A DNA stretch of 64,000 bases, taken from assembly GCF_001889045.1 (NCBI RefSeq), contig NZ_CP018155.1:2854001-2918000 (forward strand), given 5' to 3'. The notes under the pieces were generated by a model. The model saw only the letters and a list, made by a program, of their open reading frames with translations. It did not search any database and was not told where the DNA came from. The DNA is from Tenacibaculum todarodis (GTDB taxonomy: Bacteria > Bacteroidota > Bacteroidia > Flavobacteriales > Flavobacteriaceae). The translations under genes were made by a program, and so were the position numbers. Below are positions 2,350 through 45,064 of the stretch, one piece after another. Position 1 is the first letter of the stretch; every line of letters starts with the position of its first letter.

Positions 2350-2380
2350 TTTGTTTATATCAATATAATCTTTAGATTTG
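2350..2380 (+). promoter_or_regulatory. Promoter of the Phe/Tyr operon
   Basis: TTTG at 2350-2353 and TAGATTTG at 2373-2380 are separated by 19 bases, matching the Bacteroidota consensus TTG-(17-23)-TAnnTTTG. The expected transcription start is near 2386, just upstream of the leader peptide. Confidence 0.75.
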
Positions 2381-2403
2381 TTGCTCAAACAGAGAGAATT
2401 AAG

Positions 2404-2484
2404 ATGTTAAATACTACTTGGACACGTTTCTATTTTTACTTTTATTTTTACAATAAGAGGAGAGACTTTGTATCATGTTGTTAA
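2404..2484 (+). CDS. Phe/Tyr leader peptide (attenuator peptide)
   Basis: A 26-codon open reading frame, ATG at 2404 and TAA at 2482. It contains an unbroken run of eight alternating Phe and Tyr codons (FYFYFYFY, 2428-2451) and one more Phe codon at 2467. It lies between a matching promoter and a terminator directly upstream of the prephenate dehydratase gene. This is the organisation of the E. coli pheL leader, but here both Phe and Tyr codons are used, fitting a downstream operon that makes both amino acids. Stalling at the run would leave the antiterminator strand at 2462-2473 free. No independent function is expected for the peptide. Confidence 0.88.
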   Translation: MLNTTWTRFYFYFYFYNKRRDFVSCC

Positions 2485-2535
2485 AACAATAAAAAAATAT
2501 ATAAAGTCTCGAATTTACTTCGAGGCTTTTTTTTT
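2462..2535 (+). promoter_or_regulatory. Transcription attenuator: antiterminator and terminator
   Basis: Two mutually exclusive helices are visible. Antiterminator: GAGACTTTGTAT (2462-2473) pairs with ATATAAAGTCTC (2499-2510), 12 bp with one G-U. Terminator: AAGTCTCGAA (2504-2513) pairs with TTCGAGGCTT (2519-2528), 10 bp with one G-U, loop TTTAC, followed by a run of T to 2535. They share 2504-2510. The leader stop codon at 2482 would place a terminating ribosome over the antiterminator strand, favouring termination when Phe and Tyr are plentiful. The rest of the 313-base gap before it (2231-2349) holds nothing else I recognise. Confidence 0.88.
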
Positions 2536-2543
2536 GATTAAAA

Positions 2544-3371
2544 ATGAAAAAGGTAATTGCTATTCAAGGAGCAGAAGGCTCAAATCATCATAAAGTTGCT
2601 CACGACTTTTATGGAACGTCAATAGAATTAAAAGAATGTATGTCTTTTGATGTCTTGGTAGATAGTTTATTGGACGGTTCTGCAACACTTGCTGTTATGG
2701 CTTTAGAGAATACAATTGCAGGTTCAATTATTCCTAATTATGCTTTAATTGATAATAACAACCTTCATATAATTGGAGAAGAATATTTAAATATTAATCA
2801 TCATTTAATGTGTTTAAAGGGTCAGGAACTTAAAGATATTAAAGAAGTTTGGTCGCATCCAATGGCATTATTGCAGTGTAAAGAGTTTTTTAAAAAGCAT
2901 CCTCATATTAAATTAATCGAAGATGTAGATACTGCTGAAGTTGCAAAACGAATAGCAAATAAAAATTTGAAAGGAATTGCAGCTATTGCACCAAAAATAG
3001 CCGCAGAAATATTTGATTTAGTAGTTATTGAAGATGAAATTCAAACAATAAAAGACAATTCTACAAGATTTGTAATTGTACAAACCACAGCACCAAATAA
3101 CGGAATAGATCAAATTAATAAAGCATCGTTAAAATTTCAATTAAATCATAAAAGAGGAAGTTTAGCAGCAATTTTAAATGTGTTAAGCGATTGTAAAATG
3201 AGTTTAACAAAAATTCAATCGTTGCCAGTTATAGAAACACCTTGGAAGTATTCATTTTTTGTAGATGTTACTTTTGATGATTATAAGGAATACAAAAAAG
3301 CGGAAGCAATTTTAAAGATAATGGCAGAAGAATTCAAAATACTAGGAACCTACAAAAATGGGAGAAAATGA
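2544..3371 (+). CDS. pheA: Prephenate dehydratase
   Basis: Converts prephenate to phenylpyruvate. The 275 residues comprise a PDT domain (about 1-180) with the catalytic NSTRFVIV motif (Thr-Arg-Phe) and a C-terminal ACT domain (about 190-275). No chorismate mutase domain is present; that activity is on the DAHP synthase gene at 5515. In the ACT domain the Phe-binding ESRP motif usual in this family reads IQSLP, so feedback by Phe may be weak or altered. It is the first gene after the attenuator and overlaps the next gene by 4 bp (ATGA), indicating translational coupling. Confidence 0.93.
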   Translation: MKKVIAIQGAEGSNHHKVAHDFYGTSIELKECMSFDVLVDSLLDGSATLAVMALENTIAGSIIPNYALIDNNNLHIIGEEYLNINHHLMCLKGQELKDIKEVWSHPMALLQCKEFFKKHPHIKLIEDVDTAEVAKRIANKNLKGIAAIAPKIAAEIFDLVVIEDEIQTIKDNSTRFVIVQTTAPNNGIDQINKASLKFQLNHKRGSLAAILNVLSDCKMSLTKIQSLPVIETPWKYSFFVDVTFDDYKEYKKAEAILKIMAEEFKILGTYKNGRK

Positions 3372-4510
3372 TTAAAGCTGCTAAAAGATTAGATACAGTT
3401 CAAGAATACTATTTCTCTAAAAAGTTAAGAGAAGTACGTGGTTTGGTTGCTGCAGGAAAACCAATTATTAATATGGGAATTGGTTCTCCAGACTTGCAAC
3501 CGCCAACAAAAGTTTTGGAGGCAATCCAAAAAAGTTTGGGTGATGCAAGCGCACATAAATATCAATCATATCAAGGTTTACCGGAGTTAAGAAATGCAAT
3601 TTCAACTTTTTATAAAAACAAATTTTCTGTAGAGTCGAATCCAGAAAATGAGGTTTTACCATTAATGGGAAGTAAGGAAGGAATTATGCATATTTCTATG
3701 GCTTTTTTAAATGAAGGCGATAAGGTTTTAATTCCCAATCCAGGTTATCCAACCTATACATCAGTTACGAAGTTAGTAGGAGCAGAACCACTTTTTTATG
3801 ATTTAAGAGCGGACAGTAATTGGCAGCCAAATTTTGAGGAATTAGAAAGTCAAGATTTAGAAAACGTAAAAATTATGTGGGTAAATTATCCACACATGCC
3901 AACAGGAACAAATGCAACCTTATCAACTTTTAAAAAGTTGGTTGCCTTTGGTAAAAAACATAATATTTTAATTATAAATGACAATCCGTATAGTTTTATT
4001 TTAAATGATAAACCTATTAGTATTTTACAAGTTGAAGGCGCAAAAGATATAGCATTAGAGTTAAATTCACTAAGTAAAACCTTTAACATGGCAGGTTGGC
4101 GAGTTGGTATGTTGTTAGGGAATTCAACGTTTATTAATGAAGTTTTAAAGGTGAAGTCTAACATGGATTCAGGTATGTTTTACGGAATTCAAAAAGGGGC
4201 CATAGAAGCTTTAGAACTATCTGATGAATGGTTTTTAAAACAAAATAAAGTGTACGAAAAACGTAGAAGTTTAATTTTTCAGTTGGCTGATAAGTTGAAT
4301 TGTATTTATAATAAAAATTCAACAGGATTATTTGTTTGGGCAAAAATTCCCGAAGGAAAAAAATCTGAAGAAGTTACAGATTCAGTTTTATATGAAAACG
4401 ATATTTTTATAACACCAGGAACCATTTTTGGTTCACAAGGAGAAGGATATATTCGTTTTTCATTATGTGTAACAACAGATGTAATTAAAGAAGCAATTAA
4501 TAGGTTATAA
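3368..4510 (+). CDS. Class I/II aminotransferase (probable aromatic transaminase)
   Basis: PLP-dependent aminotransferase fold type I, 380 residues, with the PLP lysine K237 in SLSKTFNMAGWRVG and the substrate-binding Arg in YIRFSLC near the C-terminus. It overlaps pheA by 4 bp and is followed by tyrA, so the likely job is transamination of phenylpyruvate and 4-hydroxyphenylpyruvate. The family also includes aspartate and LL-diaminopimelate aminotransferases, so the substrate assignment is by context only. Confidence 0.85.
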   Translation: MIKAAKRLDTVQEYYFSKKLREVRGLVAAGKPIINMGIGSPDLQPPTKVLEAIQKSLGDASAHKYQSYQGLPELRNAISTFYKNKFSVESNPENEVLPLMGSKEGIMHISMAFLNEGDKVLIPNPGYPTYTSVTKLVGAEPLFYDLRADSNWQPNFEELESQDLENVKIMWVNYPHMPTGTNATLSTFKKLVAFGKKHNILIINDNPYSFILNDKPISILQVEGAKDIALELNSLSKTFNMAGWRVGMLLGNSTFINEVLKVKSNMDSGMFYGIQKGAIEALELSDEWFLKQNKVYEKRRSLIFQLADKLNCIYNKNSTGLFVWAKIPEGKKSEEVTDSVLYENDIFITPGTIFGSQGEGYIRFSLCVTTDVIKEAINRL

Positions 4511-4642: not shown

Positions 4643-5494
4643 ATGAAAAACATTTACTTAATTGGTGTTGGTTTAATTGGCGGTAGTTTTGCTATCGATA
4701 TAAAAAAGAACAATCCAGAAACTGTAATTTATGGAATAGATGCCAATGAAGATCATTTAGATGAAGCATTAGCAATAGGTATTATTCAAGAAAAAGCAGT
4801 TTTAGACGATATTGAAAAAGCAGACTTGGTAATTGTGTCAATTCCGGTAGATGCAACAGTAAAATTATTGCCAACAATTTTAGATAAAATTTCGGATACT
4901 GGACTAGTTGTAGATGCTGGTTCAACAAAAGAAGCAATTTGTAAAGCGGTTGAACATCATCCTAAAAGAAGAAATTATTTAGCATGTCATCCAATTGCAG
5001 GAACAGAAAATTCTGGGCCAACAGCAGCTATTTCTGGCTTATACGTTGGTAAAACGAATATTATTTGCGAAGTGGAAAAGACAACTTTTAAATTACAAGA
5101 GAAAGCTTTAAAGCTTTTTACCGAGATTGGAATGCGTATTAGATACATGGATGCAGTTTCGCATGATAAACATATTGCCTATGTTTCGCACTTATCTCAC
5201 ATAAGCGCGTTCATGTTAGGAAAAACAGTAATAGATAAAGAAAGAAACGAACGTGATATTTTTGATATGGCAGGTTCAGGTTTTAGATCTACAGTTCGTT
5301 TGGCAAAAAGTAGTCCAGCAATGTGGACACCAATTTTTGAGCAGAATAAAGAAAACGTAATAGAAACATTAGAAGAATACATCAGTAATTTACAACATTT
5401 TAAAAAACTGATGGAACAAGATAATTTCTCCGAAATTTTTAACGAAATGGAGAACACAAATTATATAAAACAAATATTAAACGGCATAAACTAA
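4643..5494 (+). CDS. tyrA: Prephenate dehydrogenase
   Basis: Oxidatively decarboxylates prephenate to 4-hydroxyphenylpyruvate for tyrosine. The 283 residues start with a Rossmann NAD-binding motif (LIGVGLIGGSFA, about 5-16), followed by the conserved HPIAGTENSGP substrate motif and the helical dimerisation domain (SHLSHISAFML). No fused chorismate mutase or ACT domain is present. It is the third enzyme of the attenuator-controlled operon and lies 20 bp before the DAHP synthase gene. Confidence 0.92.
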   Translation: MKNIYLIGVGLIGGSFAIDIKKNNPETVIYGIDANEDHLDEALAIGIIQEKAVLDDIEKADLVIVSIPVDATVKLLPTILDKISDTGLVVDAGSTKEAICKAVEHHPKRRNYLACHPIAGTENSGPTAAISGLYVGKTNIICEVEKTTFKLQEKALKLFTEIGMRIRYMDAVSHDKHIAYVSHLSHISAFMLGKTVIDKERNERDIFDMAGSGFRSTVRLAKSSPAMWTPIFEQNKENVIETLEEYISNLQHFKKLMEQDNFSEIFNEMENTNYIKQILNGIN

Positions 5495-5514: not shown

Positions 5515-6597
5515 ATGAAGAATACAAAAGAATTAAGAACATGGTTGGACGATATGAAATTAGATCATCCACTAGTAATAGCAGGGCCTTGTAGTGCAGA
5601 AACCGAAGAACAGGTTTTAAAAATTGCACACGAATTAAAAGATTCTGATGTAAATTATTTCCGTGCCGGAATTTGGAAACCAAGAACAAGACCAGGAAAT
5701 TTTGAAGGAGTAGGAGCTTTAGGTTTAAAATGGTTACAAAAAGTAAAAGCAGAAACAGGTATGAAAACCTGTACAGAAGTTGCAAATACAGCACACGTAA
5801 AGTTAGCTTTAGAGCACGATATCGATTTATTATGGATTGGTGCTCGTACAGCAGTTTCTCCATTTATAATGCAAGAACTAGCAGATGCTTTACACGGAAC
5901 GGATAAAATTGTATTGGTTAAAAACCCAATAAATCCAGATTTAGCTTTATGGTTAGGTGGTATTGAAAGATTATACACTGCAGATATTAAAAATTTAGGA
6001 GCAATCCACAGAGGTTTTTCTACTTATGAAAAATCTAAATACAGAAACGTCCCAGAATGGCAAATTGCAATTGAATTTCAAAACAGATTTCCAGATTTAC
6101 CTTTAATTAACGATCCATCACACATTACAGGAAACAGAGAAATGATTTTTGACGTTTCTCAAACCGCTTTAGATTTAAATTTCGATGGATTAATGATAGA
6201 AACTCATTACGATCCAGATAACGCTTGGTCTGATGCTGCACAGCAAGTAACACCAACAAAGTTGAAGCAAATAATGGAAGATTTAAAGATTAGAAAACAG
6301 ACAGAAACCGATTCTAGTTACAGAGATTCATTAGAAAATTTAAGAGCCCAAATTAATGTTGTAGACGGTCAGTTAATAGAAATGATGGGTAAAAGAATGC
6401 AAGTTGCCGACCAAATTGGAGCGCTTAAAAAAGAGCAAAATGTAGCCGTTTTACAATCTAGACGTTGGAATGAAATTCTTGGAAACATGATCTTAGAAGG
6501 AGAAAGCAAAGGTTTAAGTGAAGAGTTTGTGTTAAGGATGTTTAAAGCAATTCACCAAGAATCAATCAATCATCAAGAAAAAATTATTAAAGGATAA
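5515..6597 (+). CDS. Bifunctional DAHP synthase / chorismate mutase
   Basis: Entry enzyme of the shikimate pathway fused to chorismate mutase. Residues 1 to about 265 form a DAHP synthase of the AroA-I-beta/KDO8PS-like type (IAGPCSAETEEQ, FRAGIWKPRTRPGNFEG, DPSHITGNR). Residues about 270-360 are an AroQ-type chorismate mutase (LRAQINVVDGQLIEMMGKRM...IGALKK). This fusion order is established for Bacteroidota, where prephenate produced by the mutase domain feeds back on the synthase. Last gene of the operon; a terminator follows. Confidence 0.94.
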   Translation: MKNTKELRTWLDDMKLDHPLVIAGPCSAETEEQVLKIAHELKDSDVNYFRAGIWKPRTRPGNFEGVGALGLKWLQKVKAETGMKTCTEVANTAHVKLALEHDIDLLWIGARTAVSPFIMQELADALHGTDKIVLVKNPINPDLALWLGGIERLYTADIKNLGAIHRGFSTYEKSKYRNVPEWQIAIEFQNRFPDLPLINDPSHITGNREMIFDVSQTALDLNFDGLMIETHYDPDNAWSDAAQQVTPTKLKQIMEDLKIRKQTETDSSYRDSLENLRAQINVVDGQLIEMMGKRMQVADQIGALKKEQNVAVLQSRRWNEILGNMILEGESKGLSEEFVLRMFKAIHQESINHQEKIIKG

Positions 6598-6694: not shown

Positions 6695-6815
6695 GGCGTT
6701 ACCTTTCAGGTCAGGCTTTTCGCTATATCTTTTTTCTGAGTTCTCGATACAAATTTGCAAAAAAGCAAATTCACTCGAACTCGGAAAAAAGGATGCCGCT
6801 TCAATCCTTAACGCA
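6695..6815 (+). repeat. GGCGTTAC...AACGC flavobacterial intergenic repeat, copy A
   Basis: Left end GGCGTTACCTTTCAGGTCAG then GCTTTTCGCTATATC; right end GGATGCCGCTTCAATCC then TTAACGCA. The middle is a variable imperfect hairpin built on GAGTTC/GAACTC and AATTTGC/GCAAATT. Shares both ends with copies B (9102) and C (44909). It lies in the 551-base gene-free stretch 6598-7148. Confidence 0.7.
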
Positions 6816-6829
6816 GGCTTATTTATAAA

Positions 6830-21964: not shown

Positions 21965-23221
21965 TTACAAACTAAATGCTTGTTTAACTTGAGGTACATA
22001 ATCTAATTTTTCCCAAGTAAAAGTTTCTACTTCTTGAGAAACTGTTTCTCCCATTGGGTTAGAAAACGTTACTGTCTTTACTTCTGGAGTTCTTCCCATG
22101 TGTCCGTAAGCAGCAGTTTCAGAATAAATTGGTGTTCTTAATTTTAAACGTTTTTCAATAAAATAAGGTCGCATATCAAAAATAGTTTCTACTATTTTAC
22201 TAATCTCTCCATCTGTTTTATCTATAGTTGCAGTTCCGTAAGTTTCAACGTTAATACTTGTTGGTTTTGCAACACCAATAGCATACGAAACTTGTACTAA
22301 AACTTCTTTACATAAACCTGCGGCAACTAAATTTTTAGCAATATGTCTTGTTGCGTAAGCGCCTGATCTATCAACTTTTGAAGGGTCTTTTCCAGAGAAA
22401 GCTCCACCACCGTGTGCACCTTTTCCTCCATAAGTATCAACAATAATTTTACGTCCTGTTAAACCAGTATCTCCGTGAGGACCACCAATTACAAAAACAC
22501 CAGTTGGATTAATATGATAGGTAATATTGTCTGTAAATAACGTTTGAATATGTGCTGGTAACTTTGCAACAACTCTAGGAATTAAAATTTCAACAATATC
22601 CTTTTTAATTTTTGCTAACATAACATCGTCAGATGAATCAAAATCATCATGTTGTGTAGAAATTACAATTGCATCAATTCTTTGCGGAACATTATCGTCA
22701 GAATACTCAATAGTTACTTGAGATTTTGCATCTGGACGTAAATACGTAATATCGTTATTCTCTCTTCTAAGTTCAGCAAGCTCAATTAATAATCTGTGCG
22801 ATAATTCTAATGCCAAAGGCATGTAGTTTTCAGTTTCAGCAGTTGCATAACCAAACATCATTCCTTGGTCTCCAGCTCCTTGTTCTTCTGGGTTTGCTCT
22901 GTCAACTCCTTGGTTAATATCTGGAGATTGTTCGTGTATTGCAGAGAAAACTCCACAAGAATTTCCGTCGAACATATATTCGCTTTTTGTGTAACCAATT
23001 TTATTGATTACATCTCTAGCAATTTGCTGAACGTCTAAGTAGGTTTTAGACTTAACTTCACCAGCCAAAACAACTTGACCAGTTGTTACTAATGTTTCAC
23101 AAGCAACTTTTGAAGTTGCATCAAAAGCTAAAAAATTATCGATTAGTGCATCACTAATTTGATCTGCAACTTTATCTGGGTGACCTTCAGAAACACTTTC
23201 TGAGGTAAATAAATATGACAT
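21965..23221 (-). CDS. metK: S-adenosylmethionine synthetase
   Basis: Makes SAM from methionine and ATP. The 418 residues carry the family signatures: [20 protein letters not shown] at the N-terminus, [12 protein letters not shown], the P-loop-like [19 protein letters not shown], and ligand residues for Mg/K. It is somewhat longer than E. coli MetK (384), mainly in the middle and C-terminal domains. On the minus strand its 5' leader (23222 to about 23350) contains a candidate SAM-II-class riboswitch, which would give direct feedback by its product. Confidence 0.96.
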
Positions 23222-23290: not shown

Positions 23291-23352
23291 AATTACTGCT
23301 TTAGCATTTTTTTATTGAGGTTGCAATCAGTTCAAATTTTTCCTCCAATTCT
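23291..23352 (-). promoter_or_regulatory. Candidate SAM-II-class riboswitch in the metK leader
   Basis: Read on the minus strand: P1 GAGG/CCTC encloses a loop with TTTGAACTGATTGCAA; downstream AAAAAATGCTAAAGCAGT. The words ATTGCA and TGCTAAA are those I recall as conserved in SAM-II, and loop ACTG (plus-strand 23328-23331) can pair with CAGT (23295-23298), giving the H-type pseudoknot of the class. A TACCTTTG box at 23364-23357 would start transcription directly at the 5' end of the element. A covariance search was not possible. Confidence 0.65.
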
Positions 23353-23506: not shown

Positions 23507-23536
23507 CATTCACAAAGTTCAATAACTTATTGAAAT

Positions 23537-23657
23537 GTTATCAAGAAAGGTGGAGGGATTAGACCCTGTGAAACCTTAGCAACCCTTTTCGTGAGGAAAT
23601 GAAGGTGCTAAATTCTACTTAATTTCAGATTCATTTATCAGAAATTGGATAGATAAC
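23537..23657 (+). promoter_or_regulatory. SAM-I (S-box) riboswitch upstream of metY
   Basis: Conserved S-box core: GTTATCAAGAAAGGTGGAGG, GATTAGACCCTGTGAAACC, TTAGCAACCC and AAGGTGCTAAATTC, closed by P1 GTTATC (23537)/GATAAC (23652-23657). P4 hairpin AATTTC/GAAATT is present. No strong U-tailed terminator follows; two modest hairpins (23668-23683 and 23719-23736) lie in the 190-base leader, so control may be translational or by weak termination. Confidence 0.93.
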
Positions 23658-23800
23658 CCAAAAACAAATACACTTCCGTGTATCTGTATAATTCTTTATA
23701 ACATTTTTCTAGTAAGCTACATCTAAAATAGATGTGTTTTGACTTTTGGTTTAATCTCAAATTGGTTCAAAATATTTTATATTTTGTTTCTTTTGAAAAT

Positions 23801-23848: not shown

Positions 23849-25123
23849 ATGAGTACTCAAAAATTAGCAACTAACGCGTTGCACGCAGGACATGATGTAA
23901 CTACAAACGGAAGTGCAAGAGCAGTTCCAATTTACCAAACATCATCGTATGTTTTTAATGATGCAGATCATGCTGCAAATCTTTTTTCATTAAAAGAATT
24001 AGGGTTTATTTATACACGTTTAAATAATCCTACAAATCAAATTTTACAAGATCGTTTAGCTGCGGTTGAAGGTGGTATTGGAGCCGTTGTTTTTGCTTCT
24101 GGAACTGCTGCAATTTCTACAGGATTGTTAACGCTTTTAAAATCGGGAGATCACATTGTGGCTTCAAGTAGTTTATACGGCGGAACTTACAATTTATTAA
24201 GTGTTACCTTACCAAGATTCGGAATTACAACAACGTTTGTAGATGCCTCTAATCCAGCTAATTTTGAAGCTGCTGTTCAAGATAATACAAGAGCATTTTT
24301 TGTAGAATCTTTAGGAAATCCGAAGTTAGATGTATTAGATTTAGAAGAGATATCTAAACACGCTAAAATTGCTGAAGTTCCTTTTATTGTTGACAATACC
24401 GTGGCAACACCAGCATTGTTAAATCCAATAAAACATGGAGCCGATTTAGTAATTCATTCTTTAACAAAATATATTGGCGGACAAGGAACTTCTTTAGGAG
24501 GCGCAATTATAGATGCAGGAACTTTTAACTGGGCAAATGGTAAATTCCCTGAGTTTACTGAACCTTCAGCAGGTTACCATGGTTTAAAATATTACGAAAC
24601 TTTAGGCGCAGCGTCTTTTGTTTTTAAATTAATTTTAGAAGGATTACGTGATTTTGGTGGTGCATTAAGTCCAACAAATGCCTTTAATATTATTCAAGGT
24701 TTAGAAACATTAACGGTTAGAATAAAGCAGCATTCAGAAAACGCTTTAGCATTGGCAAAATGGTTAGAGCAGCAAGATGCAGTTGAATGGGTTAATTATC
24801 CTGGTTTAGAAAGTAGTAAATACAAATCTTTAGCAAATAAATATTTACCAAAAGGGCAAAGCGGAATTGTAACTTTTGGAGCAAAAGGTGGTTTTGAAGC
24901 GGCAAAAACTATTTCTAATAAAACAAAAGTATTCTCTTTATTGGCAAACATTGGTGATACAAAATCATTAATTATTCATCCAGCAAGTACAACGCATCAG
25001 CAGTTAGATGAAGCAGCACAAGCAAGTGCAGGTGTTTCTCAAGATTTAATAAGATTGTCTGTTGGTATTGAAGATTTAGAGGATTTAAAAACTGATTTAA
25101 CAGCTGCTTTTTCAGAATTATAA
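23849..25123 (+). CDS. metY: O-acetylhomoserine sulfhydrylase
   Basis: PLP enzyme of the Cys/Met metabolism family that makes homocysteine from O-acetylhomoserine and sulfide. The 424 residues, with PLP Lys207 in HSLTKYIGGQGTSLGG, match the MetY (longer) subgroup; FASGTAAISTGLL and the C-terminal LIIHPASTTHQQL are conserved. It is the first gene after a SAM-I riboswitch and is followed by the acetyltransferase fusion that supplies its substrate. A second family member (MetZ-like) lies at 28818. Confidence 0.93.
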   Translation: MSTQKLATNALHAGHDVTTNGSARAVPIYQTSSYVFNDADHAANLFSLKELGFIYTRLNNPTNQILQDRLAAVEGGIGAVVFASGTAAISTGLLTLLKSGDHIVASSSLYGGTYNLLSVTLPRFGITTTFVDASNPANFEAAVQDNTRAFFVESLGNPKLDVLDLEEISKHAKIAEVPFIVDNTVATPALLNPIKHGADLVIHSLTKYIGGQGTSLGGAIIDAGTFNWANGKFPEFTEPSAGYHGLKYYETLGAASFVFKLILEGLRDFGGALSPTNAFNIIQGLETLTVRIKQHSENALALAKWLEQQDAVEWVNYPGLESSKYKSLANKYLPKGQSGIVTFGAKGGFEAAKTISNKTKVFSLLANIGDTKSLIIHPASTTHQQLDEAAQASAGVSQDLIRLSVGIEDLEDLKTDLTAAFSEL

Positions 25124-25227: not shown

Positions 25228-28200
25228 TTGAAACATTTATTAGAACATATCAAAATAAAAAACTTCACCACAGAATCTGGTGCTTTAATTTCTGAATTGA
25301 ATTTAAGTTACCAGGTTTTTGGGAAAAGTTTAGGTACAGCACCCGTTATTTTAGTAAATCATGCTTTAACAGGAAACAGTGATGTTGCTGGAGAAAATGG
25401 TTGGTGGCAAGATGTTGTTGGGGAAGAAAAAGCCATAGACACAGCTGTTTATACAATTTTATCTTTCAATATTCCAGGAAATGGTTTTGATGGTTTTTTA
25501 ATTGAAAACTACAAAGATTTTATTGCCAGAGATATTGCGAGAGTTTTCTTAGAAGGATTAAATCAGCTAAAAATAACACAATTATTTGCATTAATTGGAG
25601 GTTCGTTAGGCGGCGGAATTGCTTGGGAAATGATGGTGATAAACACAAAATTAACCCAACACTTTTTGCCAATTGCAACCGATTGGAAATCGACCGATTG
25701 GTTAATTGCAAATTGTCAAATTCAAGAACAATTTTTAGTAAATTCTAGCAATCCTGTTCATGATGCACGCATGCATGCAATGTTATGTTATAGAACTCCA
25801 GAATCTTTTAAAGACCGTTTTAAGAGATCTAAAAATGAAAGTCAACAACTTTTTAATGTAGAAAGTTGGTTGTTACATCATGGAGAAAAATTACAGGAAC
25901 GTTATCAGTTGTCTTCGTATAAATTGATGAATCAGTTACTTAGAAGTATTGATGTTACAAAGAATGGAGAGAAAAAGATTGATATTTTAGATGAAATTGA
26001 AGCTAATATTCACATTATTGGTGTGGATTCTGATCTATTTTTTACTGCGGAAGAAAATAGAGAAACGCATAAAAAATTAGCATTAACAAAAGAAAATGTA
26101 ACCTACAATGAAATAAATTCGTTGCATGGACATGATGCTTTCTTAATAGAATATGATCAGCTTCAAAAAATAATAGAACCTATTTTCAATAAAGATTATA
26201 GACCAAAAAAAATGAAAGTATTAAAGTTTGGAGGAAAGTCTTTAGCAAACGGAAAAGGACTTAAAAATGCTATTGAAATTATCCTTAATAAGCATCAAAA
26301 CGGAGAAAAAGTAACAGTTGTAGCTTCAGCAAGAGGTAATACAACAGATTTATTAGAAGCTATTTTAGAGAAAGCAAAATCGAAAATAACCTATAAAAAG
26401 AAATTTAAAAAATTTAAAGAATATCAACAAGAACCTAATAGTAAAGTAGATTTATCCAAGGAGTTTAAAACGTTGGAAACCATTTTTGAAGGCGTTTCAT
26501 TATTAGGAGATTATAGCACTAAAATTAAAGATGAAGTTTTAGCGCAAGGCGAGTTACTATCAACTAAGATGGTAACAAGTTTATTGCAAAAAGAAGGTGT
26601 TTCGGCTAATGCTGTGGATGCAAGAGAATTAATTATTACAGATGATAATTTTGGAAATGCACAGCCAATTAATGCAATTTCTTCAGAAAATGTAATTTCA
26701 TTTTTTAAAGAAAATAGTAATACAGTTAATGTTGTTGCTGGTTTTATTTCATCAAATAAAAAAGGAGAAACAACAACTTTAGGAAGAAACGGAAGTAATT
26801 ACACAGCAGCACTTTTAGCAAATTATTTAGACGCAGATGAGTTGCAGAATTATACACATGTAAGTGGAATTTTTACAGCAAATCCAGATTTGGTAGCTGA
26901 TGCAAAGAAAATAGAAAAATTATCGTTTTCTGAAGCTAATGAATTAGCAAATTTTGGTGCCACCATTTTACATGCAAAAACCATTATTCCGCTTTTAGAG
27001 AAAAACATCAATTTAAGAATATTAAATACGTTTAATAAAGAAGATAAAGGGACTTTAATTACATCTGAGACTTCTGAAAAAGGAATAAAATCGATTTCAA
27101 CAATTGACAACGTTTCTCTTTTAAATTTTGAAGGAAGAGGTTTGTTAGGAAAAGTTGGAGTAGATGCACGTATTTTTAGAGCATTAAGCGATAAAAATAT
27201 TAGCGTAAGTATTGTTTCTCAAGGTTCTTCAGAAAGAGGAATTGGTTTAATAATTGATTCAAATAGAGCTTCAGAAGCAGTTTTAGCATTAGAAGCAGCA
27301 TTTGAAAACGATTTTTACTCGCAAGATGTAAATCAGATTTCTATTATAGAAAATGTAGCTGTTATTTCTATTATTGGTCAAGATTTAAGCGAATTTCATT
27401 TGCCTTATAACGCATTGATAAAAAATCAAATTGTACCTGTTTTATTTAACAATACAGTTACAGGTAAAAATGTGAGTTTAGTTGTTAAGAAAGATGAACT
27501 TCATAAAGCTGTAAATGTAATTCATGGTCAAGTTTTTGGAATTGCAAAGAAAATAAACATTGCCATTTTTGGTAAAGGAACCGTTGGAGGAACTTTAATT
27601 GATCAAATTTTAGAGAATACAGCTTCAGTTTTAGAGCGAAGAAAAATACAGTTAAACGTTTTTGCTGTTGCAGATTCTAAAAGAACTTTGTTAAATGAAA
27701 ATGGAGTTTCTAAAAACTGGGAGCAAGATTTACTAACAAACGGACAAGAAAATACTTCAATTGAAGATATTATTGAGTTTGCTAAATCGCATCATTTCGA
27801 AAACTTAATTGCGGTAGATAATACAGCAAGTGTGCCTTTTGTGGGTAATTATATTCAGTTTATAGAAGCAGGTTTCGATTTAGTTTCTTGTAATAAAATT
27901 GCAAATACCTTGTCTTTTGATTTTTACAAAGAAGTAAGAGCAAAATTAAAAGAATACCAAAAGCAATATTTGTATGAAACTAATGTTGGTGCTGGTTTAC
28001 CATTAATTGATACGATTCGTTTATTACACGAATCTGGAGAGAATATCACTAAAATTAGAGGTGTTTTCTCTGGAAGTTTAAGTTATTTATTCAATACTTT
28101 TTCAGCAGAAAATAGAAGTTTTTCTAAGGTTTTAAAAGAAGCAATTGATAGCGGATATACAGAGCCAGATGCAAGAGAAGATCTAGGTGGAAATGATGTT

Positions 28201-28629
28201 GCAAGAAAATTACTGATTTTGGCAAGAGAATTAGAGTTAGAAAACGAATTCAAAGATGTTAATATTCAGAATTTAATTCCAGAAAATTTAAGAGAAGGCG
28301 AGGTTGGAGATTTTCTATCTAATTTAGACTTAATGAATGATGAATATCAGGAATTAAAAGAAAACCAAGAAGAAAATCATGTTTTGCGTTATATTGGTGA
28401 ATTAAGTGGAGATTTATCACAAAATAAAGGAAATTTAGACGTAAAATTGGTGTCGGTTTGTAAAAATTCTCCTTTGGGATCTTTAAAAGGATCGGATGCT
28501 ATTTTTGAAATTTATACAGAATCTTACGGAGAACAACCTATTGTTATTCAGGGAGCAGGAGCAGGTTCTAAAGTAACAGCAAGAGGCGTTTTTGGAGACA
28601 TTTTAAGACTGGCAAAACATAACAACTAA
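25228..28629 (+). CDS. Trifunctional homoserine O-acetyltransferase / aspartokinase / homoserine dehydrogenase
   Basis: 1133 residues in one frame. Residues 1-328: MetX-like alpha/beta hydrolase with Ser126 in GGSLGGG, Asp269 in DSDLFF and His302 in GHDAFL. Residues 329 to about 770: aspartokinase (KFGGKSLANG, FISSNKKGETTTLGRNGSNY) with ACT domains. Residues about 771-1133: homoserine dehydrogenase (FGKGTVGGTL, ETNVGAGLP, GVFSGSLSYLFN). The start is a TTG directly after an in-frame stop; no ATG occurs before the catalytic Ser. An internal ATG at 26212 begins exactly at the kinase domain and might be used separately. It joins three steps towards O-acetylhomoserine, the substrate of MetY and MetZ on either side. 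Confidence 0.93.
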   Translation: MKHLLEHIKIKNFTTESGALISELNLSYQVFGKSLGTAPVILVNHALTGNSDVAGENGWWQDVVGEEKAIDTAVYTILSFNIPGNGFDGFLIENYKDFIARDIARVFLEGLNQLKITQLFALIGGSLGGGIAWEMMVINTKLTQHFLPIATDWKSTDWLIANCQIQEQFLVNSSNPVHDARMHAMLCYRTPESFKDRFKRSKNESQQLFNVESWLLHHGEKLQERYQLSSYKLMNQLLRSIDVTKNGEKKIDILDEIEANIHIIGVDSDLFFTAEENRETHKKLALTKENVTYNEINSLHGHDAFLIEYDQLQKIIEPIFNKDYRPKKMKVLKFGGKSLANGKGLKNAIEIILNKHQNGEKVTVVASARGNTTDLLEAILEKAKSKITYKKKFKKFKEYQQEPNSKVDLSKEFKTLETIFEGVSLLGDYSTKIKDEVLAQGELLSTKMVTSLLQKEGVSANAVDARELIITDDNFGNAQPINAISSENVISFFKENSNTVNVVAGFISSNKKGETTTLGRNGSNYTAALLANYLDADELQNYTHVSGIFTANPDLVADAKKIEKLSFSEANELANFGATILHAKTIIPLLEKNINLRILNTFNKEDKGTLITSETSEKGIKSISTIDNVSLLNFEGRGLLGKVGVDARIFRALSDKNISVSIVSQGSSERGIGLIIDSNRASEAVLALEAAFENDFYSQDVNQISIIENVAVISIIGQDLSEFHLPYNALIKNQIVPVLFNNTVTGKNVSLVVKKDELHKAVNVIHGQVFGIAKKINIAIFGKGTVGGTLIDQILENTASVLERRKIQLNVFAVADSKRTLLNENGVSKNWEQDLLTNGQENTSIEDIIEFAKSHHFENLIAVDNTASVPFVGNYIQFIEAGFDLVSCNKIANTLSFDFYKEVRAKLKEYQKQYLYETNVGAGLPLIDTIRLLHESGENITKIRGVFSGSLSYLFNTFSAENRSFSKVLKEAIDSGYTEPDAREDLGGNDVARKLLILARELELENEFKDVNIQNLIPENLREGEVGDFLSNLDLMNDEYQELKENQEENHVLRYIGELSGDLSQNKGNLDVKLVSVCKNSPLGSLKGSDAIFEIYTESYGEQPIVIQGAGAGSKVTARGVFGDILRLAKHNN

Positions 28630-38322: not shown

Positions 38323-38404
38323 AGCTATTTCCAGCTTTCAGCACTCGCTTTTTTTGCCTGAAAAAGGCAAAAAAGAGCTCAGACAAATGCTTCAATCTGG
38401 GCTA
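38323..38404 (+). repeat. Intergenic repeat related to the GGCGTTAC family, copy D
   Basis: CCAGCTTTCAGCACTCGC, hairpin TTTTTTTGCC/GGCAAAAAA, then GAGCTCAGACAAATGCTTC and AATCTGGGCTA. The words GCACTC and CAGACAAA-GCTTC match copy B, but the outer ends differ, so it looks like a second subfamily. Lies between the reductase and ferredoxin genes and can act as a hairpin barrier. Confidence 0.6.
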
Positions 38405-38513
38405 AACTTGTTTGAAACAATTTGTTTCTTTTCATGTTCTTTACCTATAAATATATAATTTACATTGTTAGGTTTGCTTAACTTTGCAGACAATATCAAT
38501 AAAAGAAAAGTAG

Positions 38514-40599: not shown

Positions 40600-40677
40600 T
40601 TTATTTGCTCGTATATAATTATGAAAATAAAAAAATAGTACGTTTATTTGTGCTTTAGTTCATACTCTTATTGATAC

Positions 40678-40799
40678 GTTATCACGAAAGGCAGAGGGAT
40701 TAGACCCGTTGAAGCCTTAGCAACCCTTTTCTTTAATTAGAAAAAGAAGGTGCTACATTCTACAAGTTTTACCAAACTTGACAGATAACAGCGAAAAGA
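40678..40799 (+). promoter_or_regulatory. SAM-I (S-box) riboswitch upstream of metH
   Basis: Core sequences CGAAAGGCAGAGGGATTAGA, CCCGTTGAAGCCTTAGCAAC and GAAGGTGCTACATTC, closed by GTTATC (40678-40683)/GATAAC (40794-40799). P4 hairpin CAAGTTT/AAACTTG is present. No terminator separates it from the ATG at 40839, only 39 bases away, so sequestration of the start region is the likely mode. No clear promoter box upstream was found. Confidence 0.92.
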
Positions 40800-44894: not shown

Positions 44895-44908
44895 GCAGGC
44901 AAACAAGT

Positions 44909-45064
44909 TGCGTTAGCGATTGCAGTGGCATCCTTTTTATTTTCAACTTGTTTCAGTATCTATCATAAAAAAATAAAATTAGTTCTAAATAAGAAAAGAT
45001 ACTGAAACAAGTTAAGCATAAATAAAAAGATATAACGAAAAGCGCGACCTGAAAGGTAACGCCC
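44909..45064 (-). repeat. GGCGTTAC...AACGC intergenic repeat, copy C
   Basis: On the minus strand GGGCGTTACCTTTCAGGTCG and CTTTTCGTTATATC at one end and GGATGCCACTGCAATC then GCTAACGCA at the other, matching copy A at both ends. The middle has a perfect 16-bp inverted repeat, AACTTGTTTCAGTATC (44945-44960) and its complement (44998-45013). Confidence 0.7.

Follow-up and report, generated by a model that had tools for sequence, protein, structure and literature searches.

A candidate leader-peptide attenuator with mixed Phe and Tyr codons upstream of pheA in Flavobacteriaceae

How does Tenacibaculum todarodis adjust transcription of its aromatic amino acid biosynthesis operon to the supply of phenylalanine and tyrosine? 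We addressed this question in a window of 64,000 nucleotides, i.e. the whole stretch of DNA analysed (contig NZ_CP018155.1, positions 2,854,001 to 2,918,000 of the forward strand), which belongs to a genome of 3.02 Mb assembled as a single contig. Upstream of pheA, the window holds a leader open reading frame with codons for the end products of the pathway, a terminator ahead of the first gene, and a mutually exclusive antiterminator that a stalled ribosome would set free. With a probability of roughly 0.9, we take this arrangement to be a classical ribosome-mediated transcription attenuator that responds to the charging of tRNA-Phe and tRNA-Tyr, with a possible minor input from Trp. A shortage of Phe or Tyr that stalls ribosomes very probably switches the pathway on.

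Organization of the region upstream of pheA

All elements of the locus are located on the forward strand. A putative promoter, assigned by the consensus that we take to be that of the Bacteroidota, spans positions 2350–2380 and consists of TTTG (2350–2353), a spacer of 19 bases and TAGATTTG (2373–2380), exactly as an earlier note on this DNA had proposed from the sequence. It is followed by an open reading frame at 2404–2484 that encodes a leader peptide of 26 amino acids, MLNTTWTRFYFYFYFYNKRRDFVSCC, and ends with the stop codon TAA at 2482–2484. Codons 9–16 (2428–2451) read F Y F Y F Y F Y and represent eight consecutive control codons in which Phe and Tyr alternate; both the length of the leader and the position of this run agree with the previous description. 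A single Trp codon is present at 2419–2421.

Downstream of the control codons, segment 2, the 5' arm of the antiterminator (2462–2473), and segment 3, its 3' arm (2499–2510), form the 12-bp helix that had been predicted; all twelve pairs are standard, one of them being G-U. Segment 3 is common to the antiterminator and to an intrinsic terminator at 2503–2535, which comprises an 11-bp stem (2503–2513 with 2519–2529), a loop at 2514–2518 and a T run at 2527–2535. The competing hairpin and its T run had been recognized before at 2504–2535, with a stem of 10 bp that has to be extended by the pair starting at 2503. Similarly, the start of pheA lies just past the T run as expected, and the ATG at 2544 follows after 8 bases, not 9. 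The gene pheA, encoding prephenate dehydratase, occupies 2544–3371 (NCBIfam match below the curated cut-off).

From this arrangement we infer the following course of events, from transcription start and leader translation through stalling to read-through and a Trp input. Transcription would begin a few bases past 2380, and a ribosome would start on the leader. With charged tRNA-Phe or tRNA-Tyr in short supply, the ribosome would stall at codons 9–16 and leave segment 2 free to pair with segment 3 once the latter has emerged, and the terminator (2503–2529) would come too late. With the terminator blocked, RNA polymerase would continue into pheA, the aminotransferase gene, tyrA and aroF. If both tRNAs were charged, the ribosome would reach the stop codon at 2482 and cover segment 2, segment 3 would fold with segment 4, and transcription would stop in the T run. 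Given the alternation of F and Y in the run, the operon should open whenever either of the end products runs short. The Trp codon at 2419–2421 could contribute a weaker Trp input, which would be sensible because the operon has the only evident DAHP synthase.

The aromatic leader is conserved among Flavobacteriaceae

An F/Y-rich leader starting with ATG was found 5' of pheA in all 80 close relatives, i.e. the best 80 of 209 matches, among which the closest named pheA is that of Tenacibaculum aquimarinum with 95% identity. The search was extended to a sample of 149 genomes of the family from 148 genera (own genome included), 130 of which had pheA, and the upstream regions of the 129 pheA loci besides our own were surveyed for a small ORF with at least six aromatic residues in ten. 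Such a leader occurred at 123 of the 129 loci; among the controls, 80 of 1290 dinucleotide-shuffled sequences and 5 of 129 reverse strands qualified. Among the six remaining loci, that of G048 comprises 128 bases of contig in which a cut F/Y run and a terminator are visible; no leader was found in the regions upstream of pheA in G080, G128, G013, G023 and G035. Beyond the family, an aromatic-rich leader was identified at 32 of 53 pheA loci (compared to 2.1% of shuffles), and the same definition identified none at the other 21. These 53 loci form an uneven sample from the phylum draw, the class search and extra fetches. In the class search, 146 of 198 genomes gave no match to this pheA query, which may have missed divergent pheA genes. 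The phylum draw provided loci from 30 of 128 matching genomes, with six more added later, so that we do not claim a phylum-wide rate. The element is near-universal in the sampled family genomes that bear pheA and frequent beyond them, and is thus not an isolated occurrence.

The mixture of Phe and Tyr codons in one leader, previously noted for the window, is a general property, as both residues are present in all 124 family leaders analysed. A feature absent from the earlier note is the occurrence of Trp codons, which are found in 85 of these 124 leaders. Counted over related sequences with no correction for kinship, Trp represents 85 of the 1773 residues that lie before or within the control run and 1 of the 1057 that follow it; the corresponding share in seven proteins of the window is 30 of 2306 residues. 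The Trp codon may render the element weakly pan-aromatic. Six-codon F/Y runs were also considered as genome-wide evidence and rejected, with 94 matches versus 104 for a reversed-pattern control. Because the genome is AT-rich and the control is just as frequent, such a run by itself proves nothing.

Competing pairings covary across genera

The pairings were analysed in 147 leaders, comprising that of the window, 123 from the family and 23 from the phylum draw; L216, L217 and L221 are second copies from genomes already counted. A terminator hairpin with a T run was located between the F/Y run and the gene in all 147 leaders. All of them likewise possess the competing pairing in a conserved geometry, with segment 2 beginning 2–17 bases past the last aromatic codon. 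In 134 of the 147, the antiterminator pairing was matched by at most 10 of 200 shuffles. When the 143 distinct leaders were compared without correction for sequence relatedness, the real segment 2/segment 3 partners outscored all 2000 permutations, as did the real partners of the terminator arms. Under the same limitation, the median share of swaps in which a foreign segment 3 equalled or bettered the leader's own was 12%. Position-wise covariation was determined in 137 leaders, again uncorrected for relatedness, after six of the 143 that lacked the anchor motif had been dropped. Six of ten antiterminator positions pair in 113–136 of the 137 leaders and the outer four in 60–81; one pair is A-U in 67 leaders and G-C in 63, and is formed in 134 of 137. 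When segment 3 was swapped between leaders in this analysis, none of 500 trials attained the real score.

The earlier note had suggested aligning related upstream regions for the F/Y run, the two helices and compensatory changes. The run and both helices are kept in close as well as distant relatives. The alignment of close relatives, from which four of the 80 loci with longer spacers were left out, contains 75 distinct rows, in which 90.5% of cells are paired in the antiterminator and 99.5% in the terminator (10 of its 11 pairs counted). Codon-sized gaps occur within the F/Y run of L049 and L050. Compensatory changes appear as covarying pairings across genera; the close set displays hardly any covariation, its variation being too small.

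These data bear on two explanations other than codon-dependent stalling. The nascent aromatic peptide might arrest the ribosome, a process for which TnaC is the model, or bind a free amino acid in the exit tunnel, in which case free Phe or Tyr would be sensed. The strong conservation of an aromatic-rich peptide would suit this explanation. However, it is the aromatic class and the place of the residues that are conserved and not their sequence: the order of F and Y varies, and the peptide ends differ widely. In addition, segment 2 begins right past the run, as codon stalling predicts. Accordingly, peptide arrest appears very improbable. Even less credit can be given to the idea that the hairpin ends the upstream thyA unit as a fixed terminator, or serves constitutively in processing, and that the F/Y ORF is the by-product of a U-rich linker. 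The terminator is indeed strong, and six-codon F/Y runs are common by chance in an AT-rich genome. In view of the comparison across relatives, however, neither chance nor a fixed terminator is tenable: the aromatic ORF occurs at 123 of 129 family loci versus 6% of shuffles, the competing pairing has been maintained and shows covariation, and a promoter-like TAnnTTTG box lies just 5' of the leader, at most 60 bases from its ATG, in 63 of 80 relatives, where single-base shuffles predict 4.6. This explanation is therefore already disfavoured.

Predicted folding with and without ribosomes

Folding of the full leader at equilibrium was discarded as a proxy for regulation, as the terminator wins in nearly all states. 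It was favoured in every ribosome state for the window and also by the median values of the 147 leaders; in 34 of the 147, some control codon still gave a probability of segment 2 pairing with segment 3, P(2:3), above 0.5. The switch must thus be largely kinetic, with timing being decisive, as is the case in standard attenuation models. Because the full-length equilibrium fold mostly fails to show a switch, we used a truncated transcript, folded before segment 4 emerges, and masked 30 bases around each A-site codon. This approach is crude. Among eight known E. coli leaders, it yielded a clear contrast for thrL, pheL, trpL and pheM, a weak one for leuL and ivbL, none for hisL and an erratic pattern for ilvL.

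In the window, the predicted P(2:3) was 1.0 while the ribosome occupied any of the first seven control codons, 0.86 when it stood on the eighth, and 0.28–0.54 past the control codons, the value at the stop codon being 0.54. A value of 1.0 was also obtained on every codon before the run, including the Trp codon; on the 5' side, the fold therefore fails to distinguish the control codons from those preceding them. Over the 147 leaders, P(2:3) had a median of 0.85 for ribosomes on control codons, compared to 0.26 at the lowest later position, and fell by more than 0.3 past the control codons in 122 of them. At the stop codon, it exceeded 0.5 in 64 of the 147. E. coli pheL behaves alike in the same calculation, with P(2:3) being high on the control codons and low at the stop.

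A difference to the E. coli systems emerged for transcripts free of ribosomes. Here, the window gave a P(2:3) of 1.0, and 123 of the 147 leaders exceeded 0.5 (median 0.71), compared to 0.06–0.46 in seven of the eight E. coli leaders and 0.73 for ilvL. Untranslated pheL adopts a protector fold with a P(2:3) of 0.17, in contrast to 1.0 in the window. While trpL and pheL of E. coli have a strong protector hairpin, no strong one was calculated here, and in the absence of a ribosome segment 2 is predicted not to be held by segment 1. A protector thus seems to be weak or absent, and an untranslated leader is therefore predicted to read through. The low G+C content may contribute to the contrast with E. 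coli.

The favoured antiterminator in the ribosome-free truncated transcript, along with the structured 5' region as such, would also be compatible with control without leader translation, by a metabolite riboswitch or by a protein-bound antiterminator, but we consider this highly improbable, as a search of 2350–2543 returned no Rfam family at the curated score and conservation resides in the coding run and in the arms common to two exclusive helices. Returning to the ribosome-mediated attenuator, the results permit a more specific version, which we put forward tentatively and regard as possible rather than probable: a pan-aromatic attenuator (Phe, Tyr and one Trp codon) that lacks a protector hairpin and is on by default, kept throughout the Flavobacteriaceae and, presumably, widely in the class Bacteroidia. 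Leaders free of ribosomes would then read through, and fast, complete translation of the leader would shut the operon. If true, this would imply close coupling of transcription and translation in these bacteria. The element as such bears on the questions whether loss of leader translation turns the operon on rather than off, and whether the coupling of ribosome and RNA polymerase in Bacteroidota is tight enough for attenuation.

Gene content of the operon

Downstream of pheA, and overlapping it by 4 bases, the operon contains a gene for a class I aminotransferase (3368–4510), followed by tyrA, encoding prephenate dehydrogenase (4643–5494), and aroF/aroQ, encoding a fusion of DAHP synthase and chorismate mutase (5515–6597), all on the forward strand. 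The NCBIfam matches agree with the earlier assignment as dehydratase, aminotransferase, dehydrogenase and DAHP synthase/mutase, with tyrA scoring above the curated cut-off and the three others below it. The presence of all four genes in one unit fits the sensing of Phe and Tyr. One short leader would couple the Phe branch, the Tyr branch and the entry step of the pathway to tRNA charging, which would concern a large group of environmental bacteria.

The aminotransferase gene directly follows pheA at all 80 close loci and at all 29 family loci whose downstream sequence was examined; a tyrA match lies downstream at 77 of the 80 and at all 29, respectively. An aminotransferase gene also adjoins pheA at 13 of the 14 phylum-draw loci L211–L224 and at 23 of 31 loci beyond the family, some loci beyond the family having a DAHP synthase gene after pheA in its place. 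The latter was observed at L225, L226, L228, L231, L232 and L234, where pheA is succeeded by a DAHP synthase match and has retained its F/Y leader, with no aminotransferase match in the stretch searched.

A search of the genome for a class II DAHP synthase had no result. Besides aroF, two other DAHP synthase matches were obtained, both partial and with 30% identity; they represent the same weak DAHP-synthase-like gene, observed twice with identical scores near both contig ends (G000:C1:20730-21479 and 3010285-3011034). This gene perhaps encodes a KDO8P synthase, and its two copies possibly represent the terminal overlap of an uncircularised assembly.

Comparison with known attenuators and published elements

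A closely related system is E. coli pheL-pheA, in which the first gene likewise has the pheA function, the short leader is rich in Phe, and the antiterminator overlaps the terminator. In contrast to the leader described here, pheL contains Phe codons but neither Tyr nor Trp codons, and tyrA and aroF of E. coli are located on the opposite strand. The leader of E. coli pheM-pheST resembles the present one in mixing F with one Y; however, it precedes the genes of Phe-tRNA synthetase and not biosynthesis genes.

Structured 5' elements that match no Rfam family have been noted at pheA and hisG of Flavobacterium psychrophilum, the pheA element being conserved in Flavobacteriaceae and found in other genera, and the regions preceding amino acid operons were described to offer strong clues for attenuation by leader peptides (Guerin et al. 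2021, PMC9723704). That element precedes the same gene in the same family; the accessible parts of the article do not give its codons, pairings or census. The claim that such a leader is little described in Bacteroidota thus has to be modified, as the pheA element had already been flagged, and holds for its details. In the Bacteroides thetaiotaomicron transcriptome (PMC7366714), short ORFs in long 5' UTRs were reported to be reminiscent of attenuation leader peptides; the example given in the accessible text precedes the hypothetical protein BT_4401, with no mention of an aromatic leader. Short ORFs with F, or with F and Y, occur before shikimate-pathway genes in two further studies, namely uORFC-13-1 before aroF in Acholeplasma (PMC8632094) and uORF candidates with F/Y near shikimate genes (PMC6429828). 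The former deals with Acholeplasma and environmental sequences, and the available portions of neither describe the element reported here. The literature searched, as far as accessible, yielded no description of the F/Y codons, pairings and distribution, although the work of Lopatovskaya et al. 2010, for example, may overlap; little was found there on aromatic amino acid control in Bacteroidota. The element is ordinary in kind and the evidence for it solid, while its detail and breadth are new as far as searched. As it is kept in more than 120 of the genera sampled, it provides a natural mutational data set.

Other leaders and RNA elements

Two further amino acid genes of the same genome are preceded by a leader peptide and a terminator. 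Upstream of hisG, a leader with HHHH, MTFIQNHHHHFYNCTRAI, is followed by a terminator (L297 1261–1318, 0-based start, reverse complement), and upstream of trpE, a leader with WWW, MNKQLNISWWWNSLN, is likewise followed by one (L300 1331–1379, 0-based start, reverse complement). The mask fold of the trpE leader was as expected, with P(2:3) predicted at 0.77 on the W codons and 0.23 at the stop; that of the hisG leader gave a weak contrast (0.29 and 0.07). Since WWW and HHHH leaders occur in the same genome, leader peptides look like a general habit. A genome-wide pattern of five His codons had 11 matches versus 3 in the control and missed the four-His leader of hisG. The region before ilvB holds three small ORFs rich in Ile, Leu and Val on the forward strand, none of which is located just 5' of the long ORF there.

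Several other RNA elements were observed in the window. A SAM-II riboswitch (23291–23351, reverse strand) precedes an apparent metK (21965–23221, reverse strand; named by eye), and a SAM-I riboswitch (23535–23659, forward strand) precedes a gene that by eye encodes a PLP enzyme of Cys/Met metabolism (23849–25123, forward strand), so that riboswitches of two different classes are arranged back to back. An ORF of 1133 amino acids at 25228–28629 (forward strand) reads by eye as a MetX-type acyltransferase fused to an aspartokinase/homoserine dehydrogenase, and a further SAM-I riboswitch is located at 40676–40791. Finally, the Flavo-1 RNA was matched three times, at 38324–38407 (reverse strand), at 44907–45053 (forward strand) and, just 3' of the aromatic operon, at 6705–6823 (reverse strand).
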